Assembly: GCA_011109175.1 (NCBI GenBank)
Contig: RDEW01000064.1
Span: forward strand, 74,653 to 120,715
Direction: 5' to 3'
Length of the DNA: 46,063 bases
DNA from: Dicyema japonicum
Lineage: Eukaryota > Dicyemida > Rhombozoa > Dicyemidae
The notes below the pieces were generated by a model. It was not told the origin of the DNA and searched no databases. It was given only the letters and a program-made list of their open reading frames with translations. How positions within the stretch are numbered: the stretch's first letter is position 1; every line of letters begins with the position of its first letter. The translations under genes were made by a program, and so were the position numbers. Shown here in pieces: positions 16,798 to 42,004 of the stretch.

Positions 16798-17284
16798 GCA
16801 AAATACGAATGCATATGAACCAAGTGAGCCACAGAAATTTTTAGCACATCCTAATTCATAGGTATCAGCCTAAACAACCAACATATTATAGAAATAAAAC
16901 AAATTTGAGTATTAAAATCGTAATATTCTTCTTTTTTGTAAAATTCCTTTACAAACTCTGTGAGGGTATTGCTGTCTCTAGTCGTATTAACAGATAACTT
17001 TTAGAAATTGTAGAGAAGTATTGTCCAATTGTGAGGGTTGGTAATAAACATTTCTTGCTTGATTTTTTAGCTTCTTCTTCAAGTGCATCACTCCAAACCT
17101 TTATAAATTTAGATTTAACAACCATTTTTCTCATATTGCTTCCAGCAGGTTTAGCCTTAGATCTGAAGTAATTATGGGCATCCAAAAGTTCATTTTTTTC
17201 GTATTCAGTAAATGATTGTTGCACTGATATTTATTTAATGCATCAACTTACTTTAACTGAAAGAAATAACAATAATTCAATCAT
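16798..17284 (-). CDS. CAP/SCP-domain secreted protein with mini-introns, possibly broken
   Basis: The minus strand encodes a CAP (SCP/PR-1/CRISP) domain. Exon 1 (17284-17248) has a short hydrophobic signal-like start (MIELLLFLSV). Introns of 24 nt (17224-17247), 24 nt (17099-17122) and 23 nt (16976-16998), all GT-AG, then join exons carrying LLDAHNYFRSK (CAP helix 1), NMRKM|VWSDALEEEAKK…C (the Trp and Cys of the family), TIGQYFSTI and TLTEFVKEFYKKEEYYDF. The last block, ADTYELGCAKNFCGSLGSY with AFVFC (16869-16798), is the CAP end but lies in another frame. Removing 8 bases (about 16870-16877) would restore it, far too short for an intron, so either an indel broke this copy or the structure is not fully solved. 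The HYTQ-type motif is not conserved. CAP proteins are secreted and often expanded in parasites; the role here is unknown. Confidence 0.65.
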
Positions 17285-17384
17285 TGCATCGGTTATTTAA
17301 TTTTGTTTTTTATAAATGTATAGGAAATTAATTTTTGCTGGTTTAATTATTTAGGTTTTTACATAAATAGGAAAATCATCTTTG

Positions 17385-17550
17385 GTGTGGCGTCATGTGA
17401 TTAACCAGTCTTTGGTGGTGCCCAGTGTCAGGCTGGAGTTATAAAGGATCAGTTGCTCCACTACACATTTCTCCCACGCCAACTGAGAGGTTTCCACAAT
17501 TGAAAGGAATGGAAGTCTTTACATGCTCGTTCTGGATGAATGTGTTTTAA
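17385..17550 (+). repeat. SINE-like S2a fragment
   Basis: Resembles 60-220 and 42840-42990: 'GCGTCATGTGATTAACC', 'CCAGTGTCAGGCTGG', 'AGGATCAGTTGCTCC', 'GGTTTCCACAA'. Diverged, no 3' tail. Confidence 0.6.
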
Positions 17551-17574
17551 AATGAGATTTTGGAGATTAATTAC

Positions 17575-17760
17575 GATATGAGTAGACGATCCGGTTCCGC
17601 AATGAAGAGTTCACTGCTGATGACGTCACTCGTCAAGCCAAATCATCATAGATGTGTGGAACCTTCAGTTGGAATGAACAGAGGCAAGATTCGAACTAGG
17701 AGCCATCAAGCCTTTTGCCCGGCCCAAGTTATGTTATCCATTCGAATTAAAATCCAATTC
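17575..17760 (-). repeat. SINE S1 copy, diverged, minus strand
   Basis: The reverse complement contains a B box-like TAGTTCGAATCTTGCC (about 17686-17701), 'GAAGGTTCCACACAT' and 'GACGAGTGACGTCATC', in the same order as S1 at 42121-42440. Confidence 0.7.
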
Positions 17761-17989
17761 TTGGAATGCACAACTGAAGCACTTTTAGAGAGAAAATTTT
17801 TTTTATTTTAAAACCAAGAATCAGCGACAAAATAAAATAAAAGATTGGGGGCCGTCAGGTGATCCCGGCCTCCTTATATTAGGAAATAAGTGTACATCAT
17901 TAAAAATAAATAATGCCGTAATTTTACTTTAATTATTTAAAAACAGCATGTGGAACTCCATCTACCTTTTTCCAGTTTATGACGCTTTC

Positions 17990-18620
17990 TGGAAAACAGG
18001 CTCGTGGTGAATGCAGAGAAGTAGTCTACGTCACTATTTACCTCGGACAAAAGATTGGGAAGGAAGACAGTCACCTTGAAGTTAAACAAGGTCGGCATCC
18101 CTTTCCACAGATGTCAAAGGATCTTGGGTGTGACAATTGATATGCATCTCTGTTAGACACCTCACGTAAAAGACATTCTATTAAAATGCGAGAAGAAACT
18201 GAACGAATTGAAAAGTTTATCGGGAATATGGAAGAGTGGTACTCACCAAGTCTTGATGAACTTGTACAAACAGTATATCGAGCCATGTTTCTCATATGCA
18301 TGCGCTTCGTGGGGACCGTCCATATCTTGGACAAATATGAGGAAAATTGAGGAAATGCAAAAGAGGGCTTACAGAGTACAGAGCGTTGGATTTGTGAAGA
18401 TCATCGACCCGGACCTACGCCTCTGAAGGCCCTTATGAAACTAGACTCCAGATTACGGGAAGTTGGCCCTGAAAATTCAGGCAGCCGTCCTGTACATTCA
18501 TGCGCGGGCACGAAGGAAGAACAACGGGAAAAGATTAGGTCTCTGTTAGAATCATCGGGATCAAGTGATAATTAGTTTTGTTTTACCGTGGTCTTGGGTT
18601 AAATAAATAAAAATTAATAA
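17990..18620 (+). pseudogene. LINE family B, 3' half fragment
   Basis: Post-YADD region to the 3' end in shifting frames: RQKIGKED-like start, LNELKSLSGIWKSG, YKQYIEPCFSYACASW, KIEEMQKRAYR, then the C-terminal LLESSG. It ends with the tail 'GGATCAAGTGATAATTAG', 'TTTTACCGTGGTCTTGGG' and TAAATAAATAAA. The tail is nearly the same as at 37270-37340. Several stops make it dead. Confidence 0.75.
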
Positions 18621-18767
18621 ACATGACGTTTTTCTTGCTCTAAAAAACCATTTTCAGTGAAAACTCAATTTTGGTTGTATTTTATACCGAAAAATGCTAA
18701 AATGTACACAAGAGAAAATTTGCAATTAATAATATCTGAAAATTTATTAAAAATTAAAAAAAGTTAA

Positions 18768-20451
18768 TTAAAAATCGGATATAAAAAAGCTTCGAATACG
18801 GTTCTGTTCCTTCACTTCCATCTTAAATTTCTACAATAACAATAAACACTACCTTTCTACTATTTGGGGACATATCCCTTATTCTAACAACATTAACGTC
18901 CTTCCCGCTCTCATTCTCACCACTTACAACCTCTTCACAGGAACCACCCTCAGAGAGTTCCTTACCTACTATTTGGGGACATATCCCTTATTCTAACAAC
19001 ATTAACGTCCTTCCCGCTCTCATTCTCACCACTTACAACCTCTTCACAGGAACCACCCTCAGAGAGTTCCTTACTGGAATCACTCCCATCCACCTTTGGG
19101 GTAGAAATGTTAAGGCCGACAACACTCACGTAGTTAATCTAAAATTAGAAAACTCAATACAGCATCCATATCTCCATCCAGAACCAACTCAAAGTCCCTC
19201 TCAGCATCCTTTAGATCATCCAAAGTTCAGGGGATATAAGTATTCATAAACACTTCATCCAAGTCATAATTTGGGAGGACTTCAAAGTTCATAATCATCT
19301 CCAACTGATCCTCTCCATCACCAAATGTAGGATCTACCACAAAGTCAAACAACTTCCGAATGGTAAGGGTCCCAACATTATTCCTTCGAAAAAAGGCTAA
19401 GATCACAACATGGGGGTACCTGTTACATTCTTACAGTCCATTCTGAGAAAATTCAGGGCATTTGGATGGTCATGTTCAACAGCCTGGGCCACATCAATCA
19501 CATGCATTTGGTCTCCGACCATCCTAAGAGTTATTACGATCCTTACATTATGTTGAATTCACTCAAATCCGCGTGGACCAAATGACACACGTGGTATAAC
19601 TTCCTCATTATGAGAACACACTGCACGTATAGTCTTCGTGCCAATGAACCACCAAGTTGGACCTGCTTCAATAAATGAGCAGGCCAACCATCCTCTCCGA
19701 TGAAGGACATAACAATCACGTGCTCTTTTATGGAGATTGGCTCAGGACAGGGAATTCCTGCCTTGTACATTCTGGTATAAGGGTACAAATCGACCTATTG
19801 AGGTTCCCAAATTCTTTTTCCGCCCACATGGATATACTTTTCCGTGAATTTCCTCGAAATCCCTGTCTGAACCTATACTCCCCCTGCAAGTATCGTTGAC
19901 GGTCCTTGAAGACGAGAATAGAGGTTTTGAAGATCTGCAAGTTAGTGGAAGCAAACCTTAACGGCTAACTGTCGGTTATTAGAGGAGGTGGCATAATACA
20001 CGTTGGCCTCCTTCCCAGTGTTGATGCAACCGTTTATTACAGAGATCATTCGACTTCTGACCAGTTTGTAGAGAATAAGTAGAGTCCGCTGATCAAGGAC
20101 CTGCTCAGAGGTTGCTCGACTGGACTTGTCGCGAGTTCGGTTCGACTTGTTGTTTGGTGAGAAACAATCATCTTCAATAAAGGAGTTAATGCATCGGAAA
20201 GTGTCTAAGATAGTAATTGACTCAAAAACCAGAGCTCAGACTTTGTAGTAGTCCCTTATTGGCTGGTAATGGTGCGCTGCTGACTGATTTTGTGAATTCG
20301 GACGTCTCAGCTGTATAATTCATTAATATTATCACTACCGCTTCCATTAGATACTTCTCGTCCTCGTCAGACTTGCTATAGTCTTTAATAAAGATATTAT
20401 TAAAATACCCTCGTAGAAAATTATCCCACCATCGTCGACACCACCAAGCAT
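18768..20451 (-). CDS. RIOK1: RIO1-type atypical protein kinase with eight mini-introns, one nonsense codon and a tandem duplication
   Basis: RIOK1 kinases act in late 40S ribosomal subunit maturation in the cytoplasm. Nine exons are separated by GT-AG introns at 20383-20408 (26 nt), 20205-20229 (25), 19935-19956 (22), 19772-19794 (23), 19524-19546 (23), 19397-19419 (23), 19139-19160 (22) and 18831-18852 (22). Motifs: [14 protein letters not shown] (ATP-binding), [49 protein letters not shown], catalytic [10 protein letters not shown] and metal-binding [16 protein letters not shown]. Codon 361 is TGA (19227-19229) where the family has Arg (YIP-x-TL), just after the kinase domain; homology continues beyond it. 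A 109-bp tandem duplication in exon 8 shifts the frame. Without it the length is 463 codons including the TGA. The start ATG at 20451 assumes intron 1; without that splice, an alternative in-frame upstream reading ([10 protein letters not shown]) would need another 5' exon. The locus is either a recent pseudogene or a working gene with assembly or base errors. Confidence 0.88.
18857..19074. repeat. 109-bp exact tandem duplication in RIOK1 exon 8
   Basis: Bases 18857-18965 and 18966-19074 are identical. Because 109 is not a multiple of three it shifts the RIOK1 tail. With one copy removed, the reading runs through the last 22-nt intron to a lysine-rich end, as expected for the family. Confidence 0.92.
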
Positions 20452-20572
20452 CCTTGCTGAAAACTATATTTAAATTTTTATTTATTAAATATTTAAATAA
20501 TAAAATATATTAAAACAAATATTCTTTATCTAAGCAAATATTAATATTAAGAATAACTACTTTATACCCAAG
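20452..20572. other. AT-rich region upstream of RIOK1
   Basis: Almost pure A/T, with short ATTTAAATA-like palindromes. It would hold the RIOK1 promoter or a 5' exon; no specific element can be named. Confidence 0.3.
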
Positions 20573-20946
20573 TAAGGAATACGAATAAGACATAGTGCAA
20601 TAGAGATGTCGTCACCACCTCAACCAGAATGTAAAGCACTCACGTAAATAAACAACAAATGACAATATTCGTATTCCTTACCGACTTCTCCGTTCACTCT
20701 GGGAACTTTTAATTGCTGAGGACTTAAAAAAATTTTACGTTCTAGATCCTCGTTCCTGGCCGATTTCGACCTCCCATAGTCACCACCTCAACCAGAATGT
20801 AAAGCACTCACGTAAATAAACAACAAATGACAATATTCGTATTCCTTACCGACTTCTCCGTTCACTCTGGGAACTTTTAATTGCTGAGGACTTAAAAAAA
20901 TTTTACGTTCTAGATCCTCGTTCCTGGCCGATTTCGACCTCCCATA
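20573..20946 (+). mobile_element. LINE family A 5'UTR piece, with inverted start
   Basis: From about 20668 the plus strand has 'TTCGTATTCCTTACCGACTT', 'CTCCGTTCACTCTG' and 'AATTGCTGAGGACTTAAA', as in the 5'UTRs at 30770-30840 and 28755-28810. Just before it, 20573-20660 is the inverted counterpart of 30735-30770 (its reverse complement reads 'CTATTGCACTATGTCTTATT'). This makes a perfect 15-bp inverted repeat TAAGGAATACGAATA (20573-20587 / 20666-20680). No coding part follows. A 5'-inverted, 3'-less fragment is the likeliest reading. Confidence 0.6.
20611..20946. repeat. 168-bp tandem duplication
   Basis: Bases 20611-20778 repeat as 20779-20946 without visible change. It covers LINE A 5'UTR sequence and 'GATCCTCGTTCCTGGCCGAT'. 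Confidence 0.9.
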
Positions 20947-20971
20947 GTCGGTATGGGATCACTTCATTAGG

Positions 20972-21279
20972 TGGGACATTCATTCTCTATTAGTCGCCAC
21001 TATAATTTATTGTCGTATAGCATCACGTCCGGGTAAAGTATCACGTCCGGGCTGATAAGTCTTACTTATTATTCTAAAACAAATGGTTACCGGCTTCTTT
21101 TTGAAAGAAAAACGAAATTTTTAATTGGGACATTCATTCTCTATTAGTCGCCACTATAATTTATTGTCGTATAGCATCACGTCCGGGTAAAGTATCACGT
21201 CCGGGCTGATAAGTCTTACTTATTATTCTAAAACAAATGGTTACCGGCTTCTTTTCGAAAGAAAAACGAAATTTTTAAT
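20972..21279. repeat. 154-bp tandem duplication with one mismatch
   Basis: Bases 20972-21125 repeat as 21126-21279; one base differs (CTTTTTGAAAG versus CTTTTCGAAAG). Each copy contains two near-direct 'CACGTCCGGG' repeats. The sequence is otherwise unrecognised. Confidence 0.9.
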
Positions 21280-21411
21280 TTCGTTCAAAAACATGTTCGA
21301 CGTAGTATGGGACAAAAAAGGAAGACCTTGACATCGGTCTCCGATTTTTAAAGGAAAAACGAAATTTTGTATTTCGTCCAAAAACATGTTCGGTCTCCGA
21401 TTTTCAGATTA

Positions 21412-21515
21412 ATTAGGGTGAATTAAAGAATGGATTAGGGTGTATTAGAGAATGTGTTAGGGTAAATAAAAAAATGAATTATGGTGTACTAGAGAATGGA
21501 TTTGGATGTATTAGA
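21412..21515 (+). repeat. Degenerate ~22-bp tandem repeat containing TTAGGG
   Basis: Four to five diverged units like GGATTAGGGTGTATTAGAGAA. It is too irregular for a telomere array. It ends where the hAT relic begins. Confidence 0.6.
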
Positions 21516-22200
21516 GCAGAGCTTTTCAAAAAATAATTCTCGCGACACACTAATTGTAAAAAAAATTATCCACGGCACACATTAAAAAATAAAAAAATTA
21601 ATTTTTTAAGATGTGTAAAACTAATTACAAAAATTGGTAATTTAATGCCCAAATTTTTATTAATAAAAAAATGAATTCTTAATTATTATTGTTTTTGCAT
21701 ATATCATCAATATCAGGTCGAATGGTTAACAAAGGCACACGCATTTCAGCACAAATCCGACGAGAAACAGTGTTATCTGACAAAGGTATCTTCATTATTT
21801 TTTGTTCATATTTATGACCAAACATAGTCCGAGCAATAATACGACAAGCAGGGATTATCAAGTTTTCGCCAATATTGTGAGGTTTTAGTTGTTTTGTTAT
21901 CACTTCTGAGATCAGGTATAAACATTTCAATGATTCCTTTGTGTTTAAAAAAGTTTCACTGAACATCATTTGACTAGATATACGATTCATAGTAAAAACC
22001 AAATAATACTTAAGTTGTTTTTTTCAAATGGATAAAATAATCCACAGAATTTTAGGAATAGTCCGGATGCTTGGAAGTAAAATGTCTCTTTAGTTTGCTA
22101 AGAACCATTGCCAAAAATCCATGCAAATTAGACATTGAGGTAGTTTATTTTTATCTTTGCATATACATCCAAATTTGGTTAAGGTGGTGACGTCCCTCTT
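21516..22200 (-). mobile_element. hAT transposon relic with BED finger (ZBED/SCAND3-like)
   Basis: The minus strand begins with a BED-finger piece (KFGCICKDKNKLPQCLIC, then SKLKRHFTSKHPDYS in another frame) and continues (22002-21679) with …LKCLYLISEVITKQLKPHNIGENLIIPA… and …KIPLSDNTVSRRI, the segment typical of ZBED5/FAM200/SCAND3-type hAT transposases. The rest of the catalytic region is missing. Next to its lower end, 21516-21540 has 'CAGAGCTTTTCAAA' and 'CTCGCGACACAC', resembling hAT terminal sequence. Upstream it is cut by the LINE A start. It is a dead fragment. Confidence 0.7.
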
Positions 22201-25200
22201 TGAAAATATGTCTTCTTCGCGCTTAATTACCCGTTGCCCATTCTCTCTTGGTACTTTCAACACTCGAGGCTTGAAGTTCATCACCAAAAACATCAACTCG
22301 CACGTGATTCATCTATCCATGGTGTCAGTATTTGCTGCATTCAAGAGACAAAGATTACAGCATATTCTATTACGAAATTGGATGATTACTACATGATCAC
22401 TTTGGACTCTGACTGCCGACATTATGGTCTTGAATTTGCGGTTCACAGGGATCTTTACGACCGTGTGAAACGCGTATGGACTGTCTCGGATCGTATTGCA
22501 GTCATGCAACTGAAGTTTGGAACAAAGCCCAACTATGTTATTTCTATCATCAATGTTTATGCTCCGACCGCTGTCCGGGCTGATGCCAATCCTGAAGAAC
22601 TTGGTGCATTTTACTCATGTTTGACAGGGACATATGACTCACTTTCGTCGTCATATCTGACGTTTATTGGTGGAGACTGAAATGCCAGAGTTGGTAAAGT
22701 ACGGAATGGGGAGACTTGTATTGGATCACATGCTGAGAATCGTCGAAATTCATCTGGTGTCTCATTGGTTCAATTCTGCGAATCCTACAACTTATTTATT
22801 ACGAACACTGCTTTTGAACACCCGGCAAGACATAAGACTACCTGGACTGGTTCACGAAAGGACAAAAATGGCAACTTGATTAAAATATATAATCAAATTG
22901 ATTATATCTTGTGCAGAAGAAGGAACAAAAACCTAATACGAAACTCGAGATCATACGATGAGCTTGAAACATCAAGTGATCACAAATTGGTGATCACTCG
23001 GTTCTCTTTGGGAAGTTTGTACAAACCTGGAAGATATGGAAAAACGGAATTCGAAAGATTGGATACAGAAACTCTAATAAGCAATGAAATAAAGATGAAA
23101 GAGTATGGCGAAAAACTCAGAAAGGAATTAAGCAAGATGAATACAAACCATAGTGCACAGGATTTGTGGAATGACGTTGGAGTTGCAATGAAGAATACCG
23201 CGTCGTTGGTTTTGGGGACTACTCACAAAAACAAATTCAAATATAACAATGAAGAAATATCATACTTATCTTCAGAACAAAAGAATTTGAGGATTAGAAT
23301 TAATAATTCAAATAAACCGAGTCTAAAAAAAGATCTAAGGATAGTTCGTAACTCAATTTTAACAAAAATCAAAAAACTTCAAAAATATCAAGTAAGAAAG
23401 GAAGTGGAGGAACAGGTCGATGAAATCAAGAAATATAAGAACGGATCCAAAATGTTCAAAGCCATTCGGATTATTAGCAAAAAGAAACGACCAGGGAATA
23501 TTGTTATTCACGACCAACATGAACGATCAGTATTGAATGTTATTGAAAAGGCGAACATAGTCTCTTCACACTACTATGACATCTTTAACAATCAAGAAAT
23601 TGAAAACAATTCTCCAATAACATCAACGGCTCCTCTTAACTGCCCCATTATTAACGCGGAAACTATTCAGGCAATAGGAAAACTAAACTACAGGAAAGCG
23701 GCTGGTCCTGATAATATACCTGCAGAGTTAATAAAATGTGGAACCACTGAATTGGGTGAAATAATCACCATCATACTCAATAAAGCATTTGAAGACATAA
23801 ACGATCTTGGAATTGGGAGAGGATGGCTAATTCTAATACCAAAACCTGGGAAACCTAGAGGTCCCGCAAACAGTCTAAGACCAATAATTCTACTATCGGT
23901 CTTACGGAAAACCCTCTCTATCATTGTATTAAATCGAATCAAAGGGAAAGTCGATAAATTCTTATCGCCTGGACAAAGCGGTTTCAGGGAAAAAAGATCA
24001 ACCGCCGACATAGTTTGGACGCACAAATGGTCTGGCGCTATATGTCAGAAATACAAAAAATGCATAGAAGTTCTGGGGATCGACATGAGTCGTGCATTCG
24101 ACTCTTTACACAGGGGACTACTTATTAACATTCTGAATACATTTCTAGACACCGATGTTGTTAGAATTATTTCCTTGCTCCTAGAAGATACTCACCTAGC
24201 TGTCAAAATCGGAAATACCGCTTCCAATCTTTTTAAAACCACTCGGGGAGTTCCACAAGGGGATTCGTTGTCTCCTATTCTATTTATTATTTATCTTGAG
24301 GCTGCACTGAGGGATTTCAGATTATCCATTAAAGGACAATATTATGAGTTGATTTACGCAGACGATCCGGACTTTGTATCGGATGATTCTGAATTTCTCA
24401 AGTACATATCTTGAGGCTGCACTGAGGGATTTCAGATTATCCATTAAAGGACAATATTATGAGTTGATTTACGCAGACGATCTGGACTTTGTATCGGATG
24501 ATTCTGAATTTCTCAAGTACATATCGAACATCTTCCTAACATTTTCCAAAAATGGTTCTCGAAGATAAACACTGACAAAACGGAATTTACATCATTCAGC
24601 CGTGCAGACGAGACGTGGAGAAGACATAAGAAGGTCGAATCGCTCTTGGGGGACGAGGAAGATGTAGCTCGACGGAAAATCCTTGCATCTGCTGCTTTCA
24701 GAAGCCTATCTAAAATATGGAGTTCGGGAAGAAGACTTTGTGGAAAAATAAAGCTTATGATATACAAATACTTTGTTGTGCCCATTCTAATATATAACTG
24801 TGGGACATGGGGTTTGTCTAAACGGGCAATGGAGTCTATTAACAGTTTCGACCGCAGTATGCTTTGGAAGGCACTTAATATTCACTACAAAATAAAGATC
24901 AAAAACGAACAATTATATAAGTTGAGCAAAACAAAACCATTATCCATGAAAATCAAAAGATCGAGATGGAGACTGTTCGGTCACATTCTGAGGATGGACC
25001 TGGATGTCCAGGCAAATCACGTAATAGATGAATATTTCATAAAAAAAACAAAATCATTTCGAGGAAGGCCAAGAACAACCTTACCTATCACGTTAAATTA
25101 GGACCTAAAAGCCATAGGCAGGGAGTTGAAAACAATGGATGACCTCTATGAACTAAGAGATCTTGCGAAACGGAGAGGCCTTTGGATGCGATTGATGCAA

Positions 25201-25290
25201 AGGGTAGCTGGCAAGGCACAAGGGAACCTTAATTGACTTTTGTTTTTTTATGTGTTCTCGGCAGTGCTAATAATAATAATAATAATATTC
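22201..25290 (+). mobile_element. LINE family A, near full-length but disrupted (APE endonuclease + RT)
   Basis: Non-LTR retrotransposon encoding an apurinic-type endonuclease and RT. Endonuclease motifs: TFNTRGLK (start), CCIQETKI (Glu), IINVYAPT, GGD*NARVG (a TGA at 22678-22680 inside the GDxNA motif) and TSSDHKLVI. RT motifs: YRKAAGPDNIPAELIK, LILIPKPGKPRG, SGFREKRSTADIVW, GIDMSRAFDSL, GVPQGDSLSPILF and IYADD. Downstream come PILIYNCGTWGLSK, RLFGHILRMDLD and FRGRPRTTLP. It ends with AQGNLN-stop and 'TGTTCTCGGCAGTGC' before a TAATAATAAT microsatellite, a usual 3' end of RTE-like LINEs. Breaks: an early frameshift near 22330, the TGA, the 115-bp tandem duplication (24292-24521), a frameshift near 24570 and a TAG at 25099. 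It resembles the family whose database entries are often named craniofacial development protein 2-like. Confidence 0.85.
24292..24521. repeat. 115-bp tandem duplication over the YADD motif
   Basis: Bases 24292-24406 repeat as 24407-24521 with one difference (GATCCGGAC versus GATCTGGAC, so YADDPDF versus YADDLDF). The second version matches the family, so the first copy carries the mutation or error. Confidence 0.9.
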
Positions 25291-25479
25291 ATCCAAATGA
25301 CAAATAAGAATCTTTATAAGAACGACGAACTGATTTGCCCATAAGCACATTGATGCGCACGTTATTATAAAATTTATAAATAATAATTTCCTCAGTCTTT
25401 TTGACACAATTTTTATGGTCTTCTTTTACTTCGTGTGTGAGATACTATAATGATGGCTTTCTGTAAATTCACAAAAAAT

Positions 25480-26440
25480 CTTTTTTTTCAAATCAAAGGT
25501 ATATAATCCAAAATAAGCCTTTTTCTATAATAATGTTTAAAGTTCTTGATTATTCATGCATCCATGGTTGAAGATGTGCAGTTGTGTTTTTTGGAAGGAA
25601 TAGAATTTCAATTTTCAAAAAATTTCGTTAAAACATGGAACATTATTAATCAGTAAAAAGAACTTTTTTTCTGTAACATTTTAATTCATCATTATGATAA
25701 CTGATGAAAATATTAAAAAATTCTGTTGTCATTCAAACTTTTTTATTTACATAGTACAATAATTTTTCAAAGTCAAAATCTTTTAAAAATGGGTATTTTA
25801 TTATGGACAAAAAGGATTAATTTTTAATGTTCTAGATTCATTATAGCTATAATAATTTTTATCTTTGATTGATTTATGCCATTTCTATCTTTAGATGAAA
25901 TTGTTTAAAAGGGTAAGATTGAAAAAAGAGTCTAGTTTCATCCATTTTTACCAATACGTCATGGTCAACTTTTTTTAACTGATCATATTTGTCTATTCAA
26001 ATTAATTTTATCTTGTGCAAAATGTTATCTCCTCCATGAAGAACTTTTAGTTTAAGATTAAATCTTGTTTTAAATCTGTGTAGCCCTTACTAACTTCAAA
26101 ATCATTGATTCCAAGTTTTTCACCAAATACTTAGATTATGAAATGATGATATCTTCAGTTATAAAACCATTAATTTTATCCATTTAACAAGTGAATTATC
26201 AAGTCGATGATGTTTATACCACTTGGCTGTCTGACTTGTTAATCGGAGTTTCACAGTTTTCCAACTTTCACGGTTTTTTAGAATTTCTGAAAGTGTAAAA
26301 ATTCGCAAAAAAGGGTTCATTTTTATTTCACAGATATGGGATAATTCTCTGAGAGTCATGTTTGATGTATTTTTTATATTAAAAATATTAATTTTTTCTA
26401 ACATTTGATACTGTTGGATTTTAATTTAAATTCATCGGAA
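25480..26440 (-). mobile_element. Tigger/pogo-like DNA transposon relic
   Basis: On the minus strand, a frame at 26404-26159 holds an N-terminal helix-turn-helix-like part (MTLRELSHICEI … LSEILKNRESWKTVKLR). Further on, in shifting frames, come LHRFKTRFNLKLKVLHGG, matching the second CENP-B-type binding helix of TIGD proteins, and ILFLPKNTTAHLQPW, matching the DDE_1 motif FLPPNTTSxLQPxD. The last Asp position is not conserved and many stops interrupt the frame. No inverted repeats were identified. It is a clear relic. Confidence 0.6.
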
Positions 26441-26689
26441 TCTATGATAAAAACAAAATAAATTAATCCGAAATTTTTAATAAATGTCTTTCGGATTGCG
26501 GATTTTGAAGTTTCGGTTTATTGAAGCTTGTTTGTAAGAAACTTTGTAAAATTTTGAAAACTCATCAAAAAATTCGGATTATTGAAGTTTTCTGATTATT
26601 GAAGTTCGGATTAATGAGGGTTTACTGTAATTGAAAAAAAAGAAGGGTGCCAGGAAATGTTTTTGTAACTTTTTTATTGTGTGCGAGTC

Positions 26690-26765
26690 CTTTGCAGAGG
26701 ATCCGGTTCCGCAGTGAAACATTCACTAATGACGGCGTCATTGATCAAGGAAAACAAACATGAGA
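26690..26765 (-). repeat. SINE S1 fragment
   Basis: The reverse complement of 'GATCCGGTTCCGCAGTG' and 'TGACGGCGTCATT' is the centre of S1 (compare 42230-42280). The head and tail are missing. Confidence 0.65.
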
Positions 26766-26839
26766 AGGTTCCCAGAGTTAAAAAAAGTATAGCTGTAAGG
26801 GAAGTCAATTACCAAAATATAAAAAAACACACATACACG

Positions 26840-28735: not shown

Positions 28736-28739
28736 AGTG

Positions 28740-29660: not shown

Positions 29661-29884
29661 AACCCTAATGGTCGTTTGGCATCGTGGAATGGAGGTTATA
29701 CTAATACTCGGTGAAAGATGGTAAAAATTCTTTTTGCAAAAATGAAGTAGTATGAATGTTCTCATCGGTAATGATATAAGTTTGGGTCAACAATGTATTT
29801 GTTGGTCATTAGTGAAGCATTCTACAATATAAGTGGAGTGTACATAGTATGTCAAGTCTGGCATTTCATGCTCATTCAACTTGA

Positions 29885-31205: not shown

Positions 31206-31224
31206 AATTAATCACACGAGATAA

Positions 31225-31490: not shown

Positions 31491-31810
31491 CTATAAACTG
31501 ACAACACAAGAACTTAACAAAATTAAGATATTTCAGTCACAAGATGTATTTCCAATTATGCCAAAATAGAATAAAAATCAGATTTGGCTAAAAAAATGGC
31601 TAAAAAAATATTATGCCTAAAAAAGAATGAAAATCAGATTTTTGGCAAAAATGCTAACATTTGAGGATGAAAATTGTTATTTCATCTCATATAATGTAAA
31701 AATCCGAATTTTTTTACAATCCAAGAGAGAACTGAAAATGACCGAGGTAGTATTTTTTATAATAATAGTATGAACAGCAATTAATCCATTTCGGACTCGA
31801 TCGACTATAC

Positions 31811-32934: not shown

Positions 32935-33135
32935 TGCGTCTGTAAAGCGTCCAAAAGGATCTAATTATTCTACAGTGAGACAATTTCGTTTCCTGGCAAC
33001 GAGTTCTAGAATCGACCTCAGGTCCCCGAACATTCCTCTGAATCATTGTTATTGTGTAAAGGTTCTTATGAACTGATCAGGATCAAATAATTAGTTCGTT
33101 TGGTTTTACCCTTGGTCTTCAACTGTACTAACTTT
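32935..33135 (+). repeat. SINE-like S2b fragment with LINE B-like tail
   Basis: 'TCCAAAAGGATC', 'ATTTCGTTTCCTGG', 'GAGTTCTAGAATCGACCTC' match S2b. It ends with 'AGGATCAAATAATTAGTTC' and 'TTTGGTTTTACCCTTGGTC', resembling the LINE B tail at 37274-37315. Confidence 0.6.
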
Positions 33136-33169
33136 ATTAGCAAGGAAAATTTAAGAGGGAGTCAGTTGG

Positions 33170-34330
33170 CCTCATGCCGCAAGTCTTGCAAATTCTAGCA
33201 CTCTTCTCTGCGCTCTCAGACCCCTCTTATCATTTATTCTGTGCTGCAACATACGACTAATGATGGCATCTTTTTTTAGGAAGTTTTGCTTCCTTTTCTC
33301 TGCTGCATCTCTAATTGACATTACTAGCAAATTTTCATCTTCATATAGCTTCTCGTTGAGTCTTTAGTGTAAGGCAATCTTGATCCTGCTCTCATCTTTT
33401 TTTCAAGAAGCAAGATAAAAAGCTCTTTGTATGCAGTGTAATACCATCCTTCCATTCCATAAAGGAAGTAGCACGTCGTCTCCGTATATCAGAGATTTTG
33501 TACTTGGTGTAGTCTGGGACGGGTAGCCGGCCACTAGAACGTTAATTAATAGAGGGCTCAAAATTGATCCTTGTGGTACTCCTCTCTTGAATAACATCAT
33601 ATTTGAAAATTAGCGTCCGCATCTAACATAGGATTTTCTTCCTACTTTTACCAAATTCACGAGTTCCTTTGGGTTTCCTGTCCGAAATAATTGATCGATT
33701 ATGGCTCTGTGCTTAACACTGTCAAATGCTTTTGATATGTCGAGACATATGACATTCAGGAAACATTTGGATTCTCTGGCTTTCATAACTTGGAGTTGAG
33801 ATGATATAACCAATCACCGGCTGACCGTCCTGGGCGAAAACCAAATTGATCATTTCTGAAGTAGTCTTTTTTTCAGCTGATTTGTAAGCCTCCAGAAAAC
33901 AATTTTTTCTATAATTTTCGAAATTGACCGAATCAGTTTGATAGGGCAATAATTGAAGTATCATTCTTCGATCTTTTTGTCTTACCTACCATCCGTACAT
34001 TAATCTTCTTCAATCGTGTGGAGCATGACCAATTTTTATGCATGCGTTTAACAAATCTTTGAGAACAGATTAAAATTTCCTGGTCTTCTTTGAACATCCT
34101 ATCTTTGATGAAATCACTGCCCGGAGGTTTTTTCTATACAGCTCTTATTGCTATCTTCATCTCTTCTAGAGAGATATCTATATTGCTGTTAGTCTCCAAG
34201 ATTCTTTAGGGGGATCATTGGGATCTTATCCGGTCCGTTAGAACAGGTTTTTTAATGGCTTCAATGGTGATTTTAGTTTCTTTATACCGCAATATTTCCA
34301 CTTTTTGAACAATTAAATGTCTGGTGTAGC
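33170..34330 (-). pseudogene. LINE family D reverse-transcriptase pseudogene
   Basis: The minus strand shows, in several frames: LEEMKIAIRAV with PPGSDFIKDRMF (start of the RT), PIKLIRSISKIIEKIV, GFRPGRSAGDW, CLDISKAFDSVKHRAIIDQL (motif A), KRGVPQGSILSPLLINVLV, and IYGDDVLL in place of YADD. It ends with the post-RT helices. It is distinct from families A and B in its motifs (SISKIIEKIV, FDSVKH). Stops and frameshifts throughout; no endonuclease seen. Confidence 0.7.
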
Positions 34331-34939
34331 CTCCAACAAAAACATTCCGACCTATGCTTGCTTTAAATTATTCAAATTTTTAAAAATATTTAAAAAAATA
34401 GGAAAAATCAAATAAAATGACAAATTTAAGAGTGGCATATTTGAGAGTTTACTGTATTATAAATTTCACGTAAATTTAATCCGTCGTATTCAAAAGACGT
34501 TGGAGAGTATGTTTGGTTGAGTTAAATACGAAGTATCCACTATCGAGAACGTTTTTGCAGTAACCAATCACTTGGTTGAACTAAAAACTCAGTTGAGAAC
34601 GGTGGCGAAGAGAAAACATAGAATTATCGGATTTCAGCTCCCCCAAGAAGAGAAAGGTCAAAGTAGAAAAAGCGAGTAATAATGATAATTTAATTGGGTC
34701 GATTGTATATTAAAAAAATCTGCGAGCGATACCTTTTTTATAATCAGAATAAAATATCCTCAGTACTAAATAATCCATGCTCTTTATCAGTATTTGCGAA
34801 AACTAAATTCGGGACTAACTGAGTATTCCCGATGCTATGAACCAATTAATTTATACTAAAAAAATAGCAACTGATAAATAATCAGTAAAACACCAAATAA
34901 ACCCATATTTAGAAAATAAAACTAAGTGTAACATCGATC
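34331..34939. other. AT-rich stretch with a repeated block
   Basis: No gene. At 34912-34980 a ~70-bp block ('AAAACTAAGTGTAACA', 'ATGATTTCACGTTTGTTAG') recurs at 43804-43875; its nature is unknown. Confidence 0.5.
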
Positions 34940-35640
34940 GTATGATTTCACGTTTGTTAGAAGCTTAAACTTTGGATAACAAATTTCTTAAGTGGACGAA
35001 AAGGACGTGTATGCCTCGGAAGACTAAAATCAGTCTTCGTCTTCTCCCAAACGGTGTCTCCCCAAGGATCTCTTTTATCCCTTGCCTTATTTATTTTATA
35101 TCTGGCAGACCTCCCGACACCGGAATCCAATAACGATGTTCTACTCATATATGCGGACGACACTGTTTTGGCCTCGCGTGATCGGGATATCCAAAATGCT
35201 ACAGATAGATTACAAATTAACCTGGACCGACTCAACGCCTGGGTAATGAAGAACGACTCACAATGAATTCCAGAAAGTCGCTCACGTCTATGTCTACTTC
35301 GGACAAAAGGTTGGGGAAGATGACTGTCAAGTTAAAATTGGACAACATTGAAATCCCCTTCAACAAATGCCAGAAGATCCTGGGCGTGACACTGGATACA
35401 CACTTATGTTTGTCACCACACATGTTAAACATTGTTCTAAAGTGCGAGAAGAGGATCAATGTATTAAAATGTTTATTGGGGATATGGAAGACAGGTCTTG
35501 ATGAACATTTACAAGCAATACATCGAACCATGATTCTCGTACACGTGTGCTTCGTTGGGACCTTCATTATCATGGACAGACATTAAGAAAATTGAGGACG
35601 TTCAAAAGAAGGCTTTCAGAATGAGATCCAATAAACATGA
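34940..35640 (+). pseudogene. LINE family B, RT fragment
   Basis: Encodes VSPQGSLLSLALFILYLADL, IYADDTVLASRDRDIQNAT (catalytic motif) and, in other frames, KCQKILGVTLDTH, YKQYIEP-like, and KIEDVQKKAFRM. It stops there without the tail. The motifs are very close to LINE B at 7319-9400 and 17990-18620. Confidence 0.75.
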
Positions 35641-36720
35641 TAATTTTATTCTATCAGAGATGATTAATTTAATTTATGTGAGCGATGAAGTGACAAATTT
35701 ATAAAAAATAACTTTATTAAAGAAATTTTATTTTTTTAAGAAAATGAATTCTAAAGACAACAGTAACACTAAATAAACTAATCAAGTGATCCTAGCAGGT
35801 CCAAAATAGACTTCAGCTTGGATCCTCCCTCATGTCTACGCAAGTCTACGAATAACTGGTTCCTTGTAGTCTCAACGACACGTTCCTCGGTTCTTACTTA
35901 TTAAGGTTTTGAGAGCCATTGGAGACTGCGAATTTCTATAAGTTCATCTATTCGTAATTTTGGAAGTCATTTTTTTGCAAGCCTCGATTTTCATGGAATT
36001 TGTCCAAGAGCTAGACGGGCCTATGAAGCATACCATATGAAATGAATGGTTTGACGTAATGCTCGTATAATGTTTTCGACTCGACGTGAGTAACGCGTGC
36101 GCATTTTGAATGTGACTCACAGAAATTTACCGGTGTTGCCAAATGGGATTTATGGTTTTCTAATATGAAGAATATCAACGACAAGTTTTTGGAAAGAAAA
36201 TCCAGAAAAGAAAATTTCTAAACTTTATGAGAACCTTATTCTTCCCAATACCTTTACTATTCAAAAAACCAAGGAAAAAGGATTGATATGTTATGGATAT
36301 AAGAAATCTGAGAAAGGCGAGCTAACATAGGTTTTTATTATTATCAAGCACAGAATCAAGATATTGAGAAAATAATCATTTTATGAAGAAAAGAATGCAC
36401 TCAGGAATGATAATTGTGCTTTTAAGAAAATTGTGGAGAGTCTATTCTAACCCTACCAATGAGGACCAGAGAACTGAGTTTGGATTTGAAAATGACAAAT
36501 ACCTCTTGATTTAGTTGACGGTGTGGGAATGGATAAAATTTAAAGTCGCTCAATATCATTGGAAGGCAGATTACTAAAGTAGAATACTCTCTCTTAATAA
36601 ACCAAAATGGAAAAGTTTGTTCAACAGTTTAATTTATGTAAAGAAAGGGTATGATCGGTGGACCATATCTTTCTCTATAATGTTTATACTGTTCTAGCCT
36701 CAACGTGGATTGGGGGGTTT
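35641..36720. other. Stretch without a recognised gene
   Basis: No frame of interest. At 35785 'CAAGTGATCCTAGCAGG' resembles the start of a LINE B tail. The rest is unassigned. Confidence 0.4.
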
Positions 36721-36859
36721 TAAATAGACAAATTAGCTAATGGAAAGTTATTCTAAATTTGAACGGGGACAGCTTGTTCCAATTTCTTATAAAATTGAAT
36801 GTATGTTGTATCAGTTCATGACTTATTTGAAACGAAAGATTAACATTTGTCTCAGAAAG

Positions 36860-37345
36860 AATGGAATCCTGTGGTTCCTTGAATCTAGAAAAACACACAT
36901 TGGCACAATCGATAGACCGTTGCGGCTTTTTCATTGGAGGAAACGTGGTCTTCTGCGAATGGATGGGAAAAGTGCCTTTGATTTGCTATAGCTGCCAACA
37001 AATTGGACACTTTGCATACAAATGTAATGAGAAGAAGAATTGTATACGATGTAGGACGTTCAAAAGAACTTCAAAAGAAGGCTTTCAGAATGACGGAGCT
37101 GTGGTCTTGTGGGAGACACAGAACTGGACCGACTACTCTGGAGGCTCTCATTAAACAAAACTCCGGCATGCGGGAAGGTGGCCCTGCAAATACAGTCAGC
37201 CGCCCTGTACGAGCTTGTGTGGGTACGAGGAGGAGCATCGAAAAAGAATAAGGATTTTGGCGGAGCGCATCAGGATCACGTGATAGTTAGTTTTGGTTTT
37301 ACCGTGGTCTTGGGTGTTAAATAAAAAAATAAATAAAGCATAGCA
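36860..37345 (+). pseudogene. LINE B chimera: ORF1 zinc-knuckle piece fused to the 3' end
   Basis: 36905-37050 encodes a Gag-like ORF1 piece (IGGNVVFCEWMGKVPL, then ICYSCQQIGHFAYKC, a C-x2-C-x4-H-x4-C knuckle). At about 37050 it passes straight into the protein end of the LINE B type (VGRSKELQKKAFRM, TLEALIKQNSGM, SRPVRACVGT) and the tail 'AGGATCACGTGATAGTTAG', 'TTTTACCGTGGTCTTGGG', (TAAA)n at 37320-37340. So ORF2 is deleted. Confidence 0.7.
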
Positions 37346-38450
37346 ACTTTTCTCGTCCTACGGGAACTGCAATTGTTAAATCTTTCACGGAGGAAGACAA
37401 GAGCTAAATCCGCAATCAGAATTCCTATAACGATGACAAACCCAGAACCCATAACCAAGAAGGATGAGCCTGTTTGTGAATGCGATACGAAATCGACCGA
37501 CACCTCTAGGAGTCACTCAGACAACCTGGCTGTATACATCTCAGTCTACTTTACTATGAGTTCGATTAAGATCGCTAACGTATTGTCCACTTACGACAAA
37601 TCAAGTTAATGAGCGACAAAGGCTCGTGCACTTTCCATTTCGGATTCTGCAGCAACTCTAACAAGATGGCTTTTTATAGAGGCCGTGAACGATACTTGTC
37701 CTTCGGACCGGACAATCACCGGTTCAGAGTGATAACCTCGAGGCCATCAGAAATTGTAGTAAAACCTACACATTTGGATTTTAAAAAGCGATTTTCTGGA
37801 CTACCTACAAGCGATGGTTTCATCAACTACAAAGTCTTGAATGTTAAGAGGAGAACATACATTGCCAATGGTCAAGGCGTCAGTCGGAAACAAATTAGAG
37901 GCCACATCAATAGACAGTTGAGGCTTTTTCATTGGAAGAAACGTGGTCACTTACGAATGGATGCGAAGAGTGCCTTTGATTTGCTATAGCTGCCAACAAA
38001 TCGGACACTTTGCATACAAATGCAATGAGAGGAAGAAGTTTTTCCGATGTCCAGGGGAAAACGATATTTTTGAACCAACATAGATCCGAGATCGAAAACA
38101 AACTGTGTCAACTGTTTCTAAACACGTGGCATATATGGAGGATGCCCAGTGATATTAGAAGCTAAACGAAAATTTGATACTTGCAACAATTAAATGGAAT
38201 CAAGAAAGAAGGAAAAGACCAAAGTTGAATGCAACAGGGAAACATCACATAAAGTGAACACGGCCTCAGAGCCAAAGATACCGACTGAGAGAAATATAAG
38301 AACTCTCGTCTCCGGCTTTGCATGCACGAGAATCGGTCTTGCATACCCGAAGTAGCATGCCTGAAAAAATAATTAAAGAAATAGAAGATATAATTTCAAG
38401 ACTAAAGGAACTCATTAAATTTTTGGAGTGCATTTAAATAAGATGGCGGA
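37346..38450 (+). pseudogene. LINE ORF1 (Gag-like with zinc knuckle), degenerate
   Basis: Several adjoining frames form an ORF1-like protein: a charged, Ser/Thr-rich N-part (37373-37600), a middle frame (37609-37989: TSRPSEIVVKPTHLDFKKRF …) and, in another frame at 37925-38060, the same EWMRRVPL / ICYSCQQIGHFAYKC knuckle as in the preceding fragment. About 37910-38030 is nearly identical to 36900-37020. Such ORF1 proteins bind the LINE RNA. Frameshifts and stops make it inactive. Confidence 0.6.
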
Positions 38451-39480
38451 CCGGGCGAAAGAGAGCCTTGGCCACCTAATAAAACAATTGGGAAGAGGTC
38501 CTAAGATATTGTTGGTGATTTCCAAATCTCTAAAAAAAAGCATCCGTATCTAATACTACTTATGACATCCTCCAGGATTGACTTCTTGGTAGTCAACGAG
38601 ACCAAGATAAAAAAGACCAATACTACTACAAAGTAGAAATATAACTCGATAGAAATGCCACTGCTGGTACGGGAAGCTCCCTCTTCTCCGTGATGACTTA
38701 CTGGTACGGAACTCGAAAATCGTCTAGCTTCATAATACGAATTAGTGTTATTGTATTACGTTGATGCGGTTCGTGGATAAATATCGGGGGTCTGAATCGA
38801 AGGATATAAAAAAACTCTATACTGGTGTGCGACCTAAATGCCAAGAACGTGAGTTACGGATACTACGAAACCAATGGTGACGGACGAAAACTGAAAATCT
38901 TTGCAGAGAAGCTGGCCTATAGGTCGAGACATCAGATGAGCCTATCCAACTATCTCACCATGATGAGAAATGCTTGGTTCGTACTTTATGTCACCGCTAT
39001 TGTACACCAAAGTGAAAAAACCAAGAATTATGCCGGATATAGATAGTGACTATATACCACAAGAGGTGGTCTAAACCTAGTACCAGATGTCATCGAAGAT
39101 ATTTTTATAAAATACGACATATCACATATCGACTTGGAACACTACCGAAATCATCTTACAAAAACCTTCAAACGTGGACGAAGTATCCCAAATTAAATTA
39201 AAAATATGAACCGGCATCTTACAAACATCATAGTAACTTACAACTAAGAAGATATTCTCTAATGGAAATCGTAAGAAAAGAATTGACATTTCACCTAAGC
39301 ATGAGTCACATTACAAGACGAAGGAACATTTTACAAAACAAAGGGACATATTATAGAACAAGGGAACCTATTGAAAAGCATAGTAACCCAAATGGGCGAA
39401 ATCTCTGGATATTTTCCACGTTGGACCAGTCCCACTTCACTTGACTCAACATTCGATTTGGAGTCTACAAGACTATGTTA
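38451..39480 (+). pseudogene. LINE ORF2 endonuclease fragment
   Basis: Follows ORF1 as expected for a LINE. IDFLVVNETKI (38576-38610) is the ETK motif of the APE endonuclease and VCDLNAKNVSYGYYETNGDG (38825-38885) the GDLNAKxxxWG motif, with Gly replaced by Cys. Downstream the sequence decays into short frames; the RT is not reached. The Jockey-type motif order fits family B. Confidence 0.6.
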
Positions 39481-39944
39481 CAAACATTATTGGTTCCTAC
39501 AGAAGAGATGGGAATAGTTGAGAAAGACATATGGGGAATAAACCTACTGTAGAATAACTAACTGCCGAAAGACATACTAGATTTGGAGTTAATAGGTTAT
39601 AGACATACGTTAATAATGAAAAACTGGGGTATGTGTGGACTTTCCAGGCCATTATGGCGAGAACTAGATAAAAACTTTTAATTACCTTCTGTTTACAGTT
39701 GTTATGATTATGGTTTATGGTTTTTTTAAAGTGAGGTTTTGAACGTTTGACTTTGTGCATTTTCAATCCTTTTGATAATGTAGAAATTGTTCAATTCTTT
39801 TAGTTATCATGGAAATACATTATGATCCCCCGATTCATATAATTACTCATGTAACTTCATGTTGTGGAGTGATAAGTTTGACAAAAATGGCATCCATGAC
39901 AACTAAAATTAAAAAAATGAAATTTATATTGAGCCACATGGTGC
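39481..39944. other. Stretch without a recognised gene
   Basis: AT-rich, with no feature I can support. Confidence 0.4.
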
Positions 39945-40715
39945 CATGTTGTAATTCGTGGCTAATTGGTTAAAGTTTATTGATTGTTTCTCTGTTCCTT
40001 TTCTCTCTTCCTTTTAGAGTAGTTTCATGTGATCCACATGTCTAGGTGTCGCCCAGTTCCTGTCTGGCACTAAAAAAGATCATTTGTTATTCCTCACTCA
40101 ACAGGAGGGGTTTTCACTACTGCAAGTATGGAATATTTTCCCTTTATGCTGATTCCGGTTAAACTCTGTTTCTGTAGAAGTGGAAACTAGGTACACTTAA
40201 TTAATTGTTTACGTTAATTTCTCTCTCGGGGTATCCGGTGTTAATAAATTAAATCAATTTCGAAAAATGGCAAAGCCATCACGTCATTTTTTGTTCACCC
40301 TTCCGATTCCCCAAAAGACGTCCTGATAAAATCAGACGTGCTCGGGTCAATAACGCCAGACATTTTACTTTTCCATGGACATCCATTTTATATATTTTTA
40401 TTCTCCAGTTTTATATTTTCTACTTTTTTGTGCATCTTTGTCTAACATTAATACTTTAGCCTTATTTGGATATTATCGAGAAGCATCATAGCTTCTTTGA
40501 AATAGGTGCTTTTACTGTCCAGGGTTCAAGCACGTGAGACGTCTCAACGGAGATCAGCTGGAAGGAGAACCACAATGCTACGGTACTTACTCCTTTTCGA
40601 ATCTTCAGCACTACTATCTGCGGAACCCACGCACAATGATGACTCTAGCGAGATTGCGTTTGAGAAATTATCCGTGAACGTTGAATCCTAAGAAAAACAT
40701 CTCAATTGGCTCTGT
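39945..40715 (+). repeat. Long interspersed repeat, copy 2 (S2a plus extension)
   Basis: Better preserved copy of 1-765, in the same orientation. S2a occupies about 39945-40255; the extension runs to about 40713, after which the two loci differ. Small indels separate them (for example 'CTCGGGTCAATAACG' here, 'CTCAATAACG' there). Confidence 0.8.
40575..40691 (+). CDS. Small open frame with signal-peptide-like start, inside the repeat
   Basis: 38 codons from ATG 40575: MLRYLLLFESSALLSA followed by a polar acidic part (EPTHNDDSSE) and a stop at 40689. The start looks like a signal peptide with a possible cleavage after the Ala. The other repeat copy (near 622-735) has a TAA at the Ser equivalent. 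It could be the first exon of a gene that continues through a mini-intron, but I cannot identify one. No family is recognised and a chance frame is possible. Confidence 0.3.
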   Translation: MLRYLLLFESSALLSAEPTHNDDSSEIAFEKLSVNVES

Positions 40716-41028
40716 TGTATTTGGTTATTTATAGTTCTCGAATACTAGCGATGTCTCCTAAGCATTCAATGGGAATCCTTTGATTTTGAATACAAAAAGT
40801 TGATGCAGATGCCACATTACAAATCAGATTTTCCAGAGAAAAAACCTTGATCTTGTTTGCGGGTATCCCATAATCACGATATAGGAAAAAAAGTTGAAAT
40901 TGCAGAATCCCTTGACTACTTAAGTGAAAAAAAAGAAAAGAGCTACTTGGAAGACGATAATTAACGAAATTATTATGTAACGTGCTTGGGAGTATTTAAA
41001 AAAAGAAACAACAAGAAAATTAAAACAG
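40716..41028. other. 3' flank of the membrane-protein gene, AT-rich
   Basis: No gene. It lies downstream of the stop of the minus-strand gene at 41029. Confidence 0.4.
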
Positions 41029-42004
41029 TTATAGAATATGAACATATACCATTTGTCTTATCATACTTCGTCGTTTAATAACAAATGCGATGACTCCGAT
41101 GATTGTAAATGTTAAAACGGTGAGTATAGATCCTATAATTATATGAATTTTTGAATGATTATTAATTGTATTTTTTCCAGGAGTTACTTTTTCAAAACAC
41201 TTTAACTCTAAAATTCTTAAATATCAAACCTTTTCCAGTATAACGGAAATTATAATCATCCCGATGAATTTGTGCCTTAAATTGTGAAAACATAGCATAT
41301 ATTTCATCAGAAAATTTATTGAGAGACAATTCAAAGTAACATGAATTTTCAACATCAATCAATTTGGTCTTTTTAAGACTCAAGACACATTATAGATTTT
41401 ATTGACGATTAACTGAATTTTAGACATATAATATTTGTCTTGAGACAAAATAAATGTAAGAAGTATTTCAAAAATTCCCCCTTCAAGAGATAACTCAACA
41501 CTATTGTTATCAAAATTAATCTTCGTTTCCACATGATCGAATAAAATTAATAAATCATTAATCTAATATTAAAATATACAACTTACTATTTTAACACTAC
41601 GTTTATGAAAAATTATGATTTTGAAATGCCCACTTAATATAGCTTTCAGTCGATTTTCCGCAATAAAATACCAATTTCGAACTTTTGGATTGTTAGATGG
41701 ATCACAGTCATGTGCTGAATTAAATTATATAAAACCTTTTCCAATTAAAGGTGAATATGATTGATTAGTGTAGAATTCTATCACCAAAGAATATAATGTG
41801 AGAGTATTTCCTTTCTCAAAATTTATGGATATATATCCGCATCTGTAATAATTTCCTTGTTTAATATCCTGAACATATGTTGTATTTGTATAGATTCGAT
41901 TATCTTTATGTGTTAAATATTAAACTATTAAAATTTACTGACATTATGTGTTTATAGTCTAAATTCGTGATTGAGAACAAAATCATTAATAATAACATAA
42001 ACAT
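41029..42004 (-). CDS. Unrecognised type I membrane protein with five mini-introns
   Basis: Six exons joined by GT-AG introns at 41904-41925 (22 nt), 41715-41735 (21), 41563-41586 (24), 41369-41388 (20) and 41208-41229 (22) leave 867 nt: 288 codons and a TAA. Every unspliced frame has stops, and four introns are not multiples of three. The product begins with a strong signal peptide (MFMLLLMILFSI). An ectodomain of about 230 residues follows, with Cys in YYRCGY, AHDCDP, NSCYF and ELKCFE and possible N-glycosylation sites (NTT, NQS, NNS). A single transmembrane helix near the C-terminus (IHIIIGSILTVLTFTIIGVI) is followed by a basic tail (KRRSMIRQM). I know no family with this sequence. The intact frame across six exons argues for a live gene, probably a cell-surface protein. 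The 20-nt intron is the least certain junction. Confidence 0.72.

Follow-up and report, generated by a model that had tools for sequence, protein, structure and literature searches.

Introns of 20–27 nt with a candidate branch site near the 3′ end, and a putative minor spliceosome, in the dicyemid Dicyema japonicum

Ultra-short introns have already been published for dicyemids (PMC2222250, PMC6543705), where they are of the GT-AG kind, mostly 22–30 nt long and present several to a gene (PMC2222250, PMC6736024, PMC6543705). The same papers give a mean of 26.2±1.9 nt for 16 introns, a median of 27 nt in Dicyema sp. and a mean of 38.2 bp in D. japonicum, whose genome is reported as 67.5 Mb with 36.7% G+C (PMC6736024), and the mean of 41 Dicyema introns was 24.93 nt (PMC2483917). 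Among hosts that are not animals, introns of about 25 nt are found in Paramecium and of 18–21 nt in the Bigelowiella nucleomorph (PMC2222250), and the ciliate Stentor coeruleus has introns of 15–16 nt whose branch A lies at position 10 or 11; Stentor keeps its small nuclear RNAs (snRNAs), and the authors point to branching factors (PMC9505925). Here, we describe the short introns in a 46,063-nt stretch of D. japonicum DNA (G000:C153:74653-120715, hereafter the window), which holds a copy of the RIOK1 gene, a CAP gene fragment, a membrane-protein gene and a transposon-like integrase, together with those of Prp8, ASCC3, RIOK1 and DEAD-box genes elsewhere in the 64.67 Mb assembly of 191 contigs (37.2% G+C in the assembly sequence examined).

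The introns resemble the published dicyemid ones (Dicyema acuticephalum, D. japonicum and Dicyema sp.) in being GT-AG, short and several to a gene in an animal with a small genome, and they differ from those sets, as described in the available text of the papers, by a mean of 23.3 nt across 97 introns and by a branch-point signature. With Stentor they share AT-richness, a branch A fixed close to the 3′ end and conserved snRNAs, but the host is here an animal, the lengths are 20–27 nt and the branch A falls at about position 14–18. Paramecium and the Bigelowiella nucleomorph likewise have uniform, very short introns. The original prediction, made on the window alone, aptly compared its introns to those of dicyemids; it also placed them close to the physical lower limit, which can be upheld in a relative sense only, the Stentor introns being shorter still. 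Introns as short as these were known before, and it is the branch geometry, an extra base in U2 and a kept minor spliceosome that are additions. They bear on an open structural question, namely how small an intron an animal spliceosome can remove and which signals it still needs.

We consider the segments to be U2-type introns of the major spliceosome that have been cut down to a near-uniform 20–27 nt, in a genome that has also kept a minor U12 spliceosome; for this reading we estimate a probability of roughly 0.83 from the sequence data. The major spliceosome would pair U2 with a compact branch site, giving a lariat loop of about 14–18 nt and a tail of 6–7 nt, and the whole short intron would be recognised as a single unit. 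At the 5′ end, a minimal GTW site would be read by U1 or U6. The branch site, fixed close to the 3′ end, would be bound by U2 and perhaps also by SF1, with the AG directly after it and no space left for a tract bound by U2AF65. The narrow length range is proposed to arise because two distances are nearly fixed, from the 5′ site to the branch A and from the branch A to the 3′ site. Rare AT-AC introns of about 48–58 nt would be removed by the minor spliceosome.

Lengths and splice signals were taken from protein-backed introns in two sets. The first, with one gene copy each, comprised 30 introns in the aligned part of Prp8, 21 in ASCC3 and six in the RIOK1 copy on contig C68, and these 57 measured 20–26 nt (mean 23.2, standard deviation 1.2). 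A hold-out set of 40 introns from 16 DEAD-box loci brought the total to 97, again several per gene, with a range of 20–27 nt, a mean of 23.27 and a standard deviation of 1.33. When gaps of up to 300 nt were permitted in Prp8 and ASCC3, the longest was 33 nt and was not GT-AG. In the first set, 37 of the 57 introns have a length not divisible by three, and of the other 20, 16 carry an in-frame stop if retained. The 5′ site of the 97 introns is GT followed by A (51%) or T (44%), positions +4 to +6 carry little, and a GTAAGT start was found once. The final four bases were TTAG in 24, ATAG in 21, GTAG in 12, TAAG in nine and AAAG in eight, so that 3′ ends stated to be mostly TTAG or AAAG were found in only 32 of 97, while T-rich interiors, also predicted, were borne out at 50% T. 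Many of the Prp8 introns are ATT repeats.

Homology alignment was used because an ab initio gene finder failed, the codon bias being too weak. The DNA-to-protein-profile aligner may skip 8–200 bases anywhere at a flat cost and knows no splice rule. Even so constituted, it opened gaps in RIOK1, Prp8 and ASCC3 that were mostly 18–26 nt long, and within 1 bit of the best score 29 of 30 gaps in Prp8 (L057), 15 of 25 in ASCC3 (L067) and two of seven in the RIOK1 copy of the window could be placed as GT-AG, or 46 of 62 for the three genes pooled. Most of the gaps that did not fit were off by a few half-bits or by one codon. When all 256 possible end pairs were rewarded one after another in the same three genes, GT-AG was best with +400.2 half-bits and 58 of 63 gaps labelled; the runner-up was GG-TA at +164.7, which probably represents the same junctions shifted by one base, and the 255 pairs other than GT-AG averaged 8.7. 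A repetition in which two DEAD domains from the same genome served as the reference for 18 DEAD-box loci gave 247.5 for GT-AG, 89.0 for the runner-up and a mean of 29.0 for the others. The preference for GT-AG is far above chance.

These figures bear on the alternative that the segments are frame breaks of pseudogenes or errors of assembly, among which GT-AG segments were chosen by eye. Damage of that sort does occur in the material: the RIOK1 copy of the window carries a TGA in frame as well as a tandem duplication, an apparent frameshift is seen in the C68 copy, three further copies are degenerate and apparent small frameshifts are present also in Prp8 and ASCC3, and GT-AG pairs are frequent in AT-rich DNA. 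We nevertheless hold this alternative to be very unlikely, as GT-AG, though not imposed, outperforms all 255 other end pairs, Prp8 with its 30 GT-AG introns and no stops looks like a working gene, and random errors would not yield gaps of 20–27 nt with a TNAY motif at a set position. The small frameshifts in the otherwise open Prp8 (L057), ASCC3 (L067) and RIOK1 (L006) are possibly residual assembly errors. The ASCC3 gene, on contig C119, had been considered as Brr2 before it was identified.

The TNAY motif, with its A at position −7 or −8 from the intron end, was present in 35 of the 57 introns. Shuffles that preserve composition gave an expectation of 12.7 and a maximum of 25 in 2000, and rotation of the intron bodies, by which neighbour order is kept, gave 17.5 and a maximum of 31 in 5000. 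As the position had been derived from this set, it was then tested without further adjustment on the 40 DEAD-box introns, where the motif was found in 21 against an expected 6.6 (maximum 16 in 5000 rotations). The 56 motif-positive introns have 13–17 nt 5′ of the branch A, most commonly 15. With the A only 7–8 nt from the intron end there is no room after it for a polypyrimidine tract.

The signature could alternatively be a by-product of AT-rich introns with a three-base periodicity that have no defined branch site, as was proposed in 2008. The ATT repeats of Prp8 would fit such an explanation, as does the report that no branch-point signature was seen in 41 Dicyema introns (PMC2483917). The rotation control, however, keeps neighbour order and still leaves 35 against 17.5 and 21 against 6.6, and in the hold-out introns, which are less AT-rich (66.5% AT), the signal is sharper, with positions −5, −6 and −9 near or below expectation. 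We therefore regard the by-product explanation as unlikely, and the 2008 statement that such introns have no branch-point signature would be revised. In the text available of the papers searched no such signature is given for dicyemid introns, to which our candidate branch site would be an addition. Taken with SF1- and U2AF65-like genes, a branch site at −7/−8 suggests that an intron of about 23 nt lacking a pyrimidine tract can suffice for an animal spliceosome.

Several points weigh against short introns with a fixed branch site. The motif is lacking at −7/−8 in 41 of the 97 introns, and the eight other introns of the window, mostly free of homology, give no support, with three carrying it. 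Five of the 63 gaps did not turn into GT-AG under the bonus, and 10 of 25 gaps in ASCC3 and five of seven in the RIOK1 of the window either required the bonus or stayed non-GT-AG. The hold-out was limited to gaps of 20–27 nt, so that of 42 distinct GT-AG gaps two, 29 and 37 nt long, were left out, and one item retained (21 nt, L031) may be coding sequence. All genes come from a single assembly with apparent 1-nt homopolymer errors. Among the DEAD-box loci, 23 of 30 were above the score limit and seven under it, and the RIO loci L002–L005 were excluded before the hold-out was counted.

The genome contains U2 (25 matches, 22 above cut-off) and U6 (10 matches, nine above cut-off), and U1 is seen in 11 matches, none of which passes the cut-off of 69.5, the best reaching 69.0 bits. 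The 5′ end of U1 is intact in three of four copies read (ACTTACCTGG in three, ACTTACTTGG in one), and so are the ACAGAGA box of U6 and the GUAGUA of U2. The U1 copies read (L053–L056) are divergent and vary among themselves, while those of U2 and U6 are nearly identical. SF1-HH is present at 80.5 bits, positions 168–510 of the model for the large subunit of U2AF are covered by five pieces on contig C114, each below the whole-protein cut-off, and the PROCN domain of Prp8 scores 559 bits.

A departure is found in U2. All six copies read (L009–L014) have one extra A just 5′ of GUGUAGUA relative to the Rfam consensus (for example L010 1525-1545), in the form GATCAAAGTGTAGTA, and GATCAAGTGTAGTA was found in none of the six. 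The shorter form, without the extra A, is that of human and yeast U2, and the stretch concerned links the part that pairs with U6 to the branch-binding bases. The extra base is a concrete and testable change beside the bases that bind the branch site. A scan of viral_contigs for this stretch with or without the extra A found neither form and is uninformative. Prp8 has no stops and two apparent frameshifts, and in the part compared is about 79% identical to that of other animals; among 864 near-invariant columns (at least 98% uniform) it deviates at 19, a count surpassed by one of the 87 references, with 27; the median of the references is 3. This excess may only reflect a long branch. In a Prp8 tree of 22 rows the genome falls within animals (100/100) on a long unresolved branch, and its grouping with the sampled bilaterians (88/97) is an open fork below the star limit of the tool.

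Judged from these genes, the core of the spliceosome appears largely conventional with one change in U2. A spliceosome specialised for extremely short introns had been predicted, and spliceosomal introns of 20–27 nt are indeed indicated in Prp8, ASCC3, RIOK1 and 16 DEAD-box loci; on the specialisation itself the genes point both ways. The U6 and U2 boxes, the U1 5′ end in three of four copies and the presence of SF1 and U2AF65-like exons would fit an ordinary machine, and the extra A in U2 and perhaps the changes in Prp8 would fit an altered one. That the segments are removed by some other route, such as DNA elimination, an endonuclease and ligase or ribosomal bypassing, might be suggested by a length far below that of ordinary animal introns and by a 5′ site that barely matches U1 past GTA. 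It can be given hardly any weight in view of the GT-AG ends, the U2-compatible branch motif in the hold-out and the genes for U1, U2 and U6, and dicyemid introns of such size have been found by genomic and cDNA sequence analysis (PMC2222250).

Introns of the U12 type have ATATCCTT as 5′ site, TTCCTTAAC as branch site and AT-AC ends. The genome gave a single match to U12 snRNA at 85.4 bits over a cut-off of 53, and a single match to U6atac at 37.0 bits over a cut-off of 33 (L048 1501-1629 and L068 for these two genes). A search for the U12-type pattern with a gap of 0–30 nt had nine genomic matches and four in a reversed control, while gaps of 31–60 nt gave five against six in the control, and no longer U12 introns are inferred. 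Six of the nine short-gap matches were set aside by eye, coding homology being found in three only. The three candidates in coding genes (L062, L063, L066) start with ATATCCTT and end with AC. That in geranylgeranyl diphosphate synthase (GGPPS) is 52 nt long, with 73 residues ungapped across the junction and no Pfam match; that in a SMAP-type ArfGAP is 48 nt, with 44 residues ungapped across the junction and an ArfGap domain of 24.2 bits, below the cut-off of 28.7; and that in phospholipase C is about 58 nt, with a PI-PLC-Y match of 95.4 bits but a gapped alignment at the junction. As read from the sequence, the branch A of the GGPPS and SMAP introns is likewise 8 nt from the end.

In AT-AC ends, 5′ and branch motifs and the presence of U12 and U6atac, these candidates are like the U12-type introns surveyed in PMC10639083, and they differ from typical members in that 48, 52 and about 58 nt are short for the class. 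The shortest average in that survey, just under 42 bp, is for Blastocystis, and introns below 30 bp were left out (PMC10639083). A retained minor spliceosome in dicyemids, as the snRNA matches and AT-AC candidates suggest, is not in the papers searched: in the text available, PMC2483917 does not mention U12-type introns in dicyemids, neither 'U12' nor 'minor' occurs in PMC6543705 and 'dicyem' is absent from the main text of PMC10639083. A minor spliceosome so retained would offer an internal comparison for size limits. Tentatively, two spliceosomes could be working near different size floors in one animal nucleus, the major at 20–27 nt with the branch A 7–8 nt from the end and about 15 from the start, helped by the longer U2 stretch, and the minor at about 50 nt on AT-AC introns, each length being the minimum of its machine. 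We think this somewhat more likely wrong than right; if true, dicyemids would be a natural ruler for the geometry of the spliceosome.

The introns of the window, which were the starting point, are listed here with the features that carry them and the evidence for each.

18787..20573, minus strand: RIOK1-derived duplicate, 98.8% identical in its main part to the copy at C68:830414-833536, broken as assembled
20205..20229, minus strand: possible N-terminal RIOK1 intron, 25 nt; frame only
19935..19956, minus strand: RIOK1 intron, 22 nt, GTTTGCTTCCACTAACTTGCAG; GT-AG at most 1 bit from the best placement in the alignment free of splice rules
19772..19794, minus strand: RIOK1 intron, 23 nt, GTCGATTTGTACCCTTATACCAG; GT-AG bonus, the rule-free placement being 2.5 half-bits under the best
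19524..19546, minus strand: RIOK1 intron, 23 nt, GTAAGGATCGTAATAACTCTTAG; GT-AG bonus and frame score, the rule-free gap being 26 nt
19397..19419, minus strand: RIOK1 intron, 23 nt, GTACCCCCATGTTGTGATCTTAG; GT-AG at most 1 bit from the best with no splice rule
19227..19229, minus strand: in-frame TGA of the RIOK1 copy; the C68 copy has no stop at the same place
19139..19160, minus strand: probable RIOK1 intron, 22 nt; GT-AG bonus, weak homology in poorly conserved C-terminal sequence
18857..19074, minus strand: tandem duplication of 109 bp towards the 3′ end of the RIOK1 copy; single in C68
18831..18852, minus strand: probable RIOK1 intron, 22 nt; GT-AG bonus, weak homology in poorly conserved C-terminal sequence
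16949..17230, minus strand: CAP (SCP/PR-1) gene fragment
17099..17122, minus strand: CAP intron, 24 nt, GTTGTTAAATCTAAATTTATAAAG; rise in Pfam score on removal
41032..42004, minus strand: single-pass membrane protein gene with five predicted introns; frame score against 100 shuffles
41904..41925, minus strand: membrane-protein intron, 22 nt; spliced reading-frame score
41715..41735, minus strand: membrane-protein intron, 21 nt; spliced reading-frame score
41563..41586, minus strand: membrane-protein intron, 24 nt; spliced reading-frame score
41369..41388, minus strand: membrane-protein intron, 20 nt, placement uncertain; spliced reading-frame score
41208..41229, minus strand: membrane-protein intron, 22 nt; spliced reading-frame score
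2763..3483, plus strand: transposon-like integrase; H2C2 and rve matches slightly under cut-off
2933..2958, plus strand: integrase intron, 26 nt; frame test
3177..3196, plus strand: integrase intron, 20 nt; frame test

Short GT-AG introns had been predicted in the RIOK1, CAP and membrane-protein genes, and the RIOK1 domain, the CAP Pfam score and the membrane-protein frame score confirm them. With four introns removed, RIOK1 yields one RIO1 domain of 227.7 bits, compared with 92 bits for the best single open reading frame, and its frame-only score is 328 (maximum of 100 shuffles 257). In two RIOK1 copies, gaps measuring 91, 13 and 8 nt were left uncounted as introns, lying in unconserved or duplicated sequence; that of 91 nt spans a tandem repeat. 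The Pfam score of CAP is 16.9 bits with the 24-nt segment in place and 27.5 bits without it, the cut-off being 21.1, and the frame-only test is weak for this gene (101, with a shuffle maximum of 100 and 102 on the opposite strand). The best spliced reading frame of the membrane protein contains five introns and reaches a score of 248; none of 100 dinucleotide shuffles exceeded 112, and the opposite strand gave 51. The spliced product is hydrophobic at its start and again in one stretch close to the C-terminus, and resembles a type I surface protein. Of three introns predicted in the integrase two are upheld, and without them it forms one frame with a score of 208, where shuffles reached at most 155 and the opposite strand 123; the segment taken as the third (3331-3350, 20 nt) is unsupported, its removal breaking the frame, and a 24-nt alternative for the second also breaks the frame, the 20-nt version being preferred.

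RIOK1 had served as the main example in the original prediction, and while its introns are present, the copy in the window is a damaged duplicate. It is 98.8% identical to the C68 copy (830414-833536) across 1608 bases and is without the last coding stretch. The C68 copy (L006) has an apparent frameshift as assembled, possibly an assembly error. Copies on C87, C62 and C94 are 84%, 75% and 74% identical to that of the window in the main match and are degenerate, with three, three and two stops, respectively (L002–L004). At least five intron-bearing copies of RIOK1 are thus seen, on C153, C68, C87, C62 and C94, and the introns retained in the copies suggest duplication at the DNA level and not by retrocopying. 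A mobile element was perhaps the vehicle by which this kinase gene was duplicated repeatedly. Several open reading frames resembling reverse transcriptase were identified by eye in the window.

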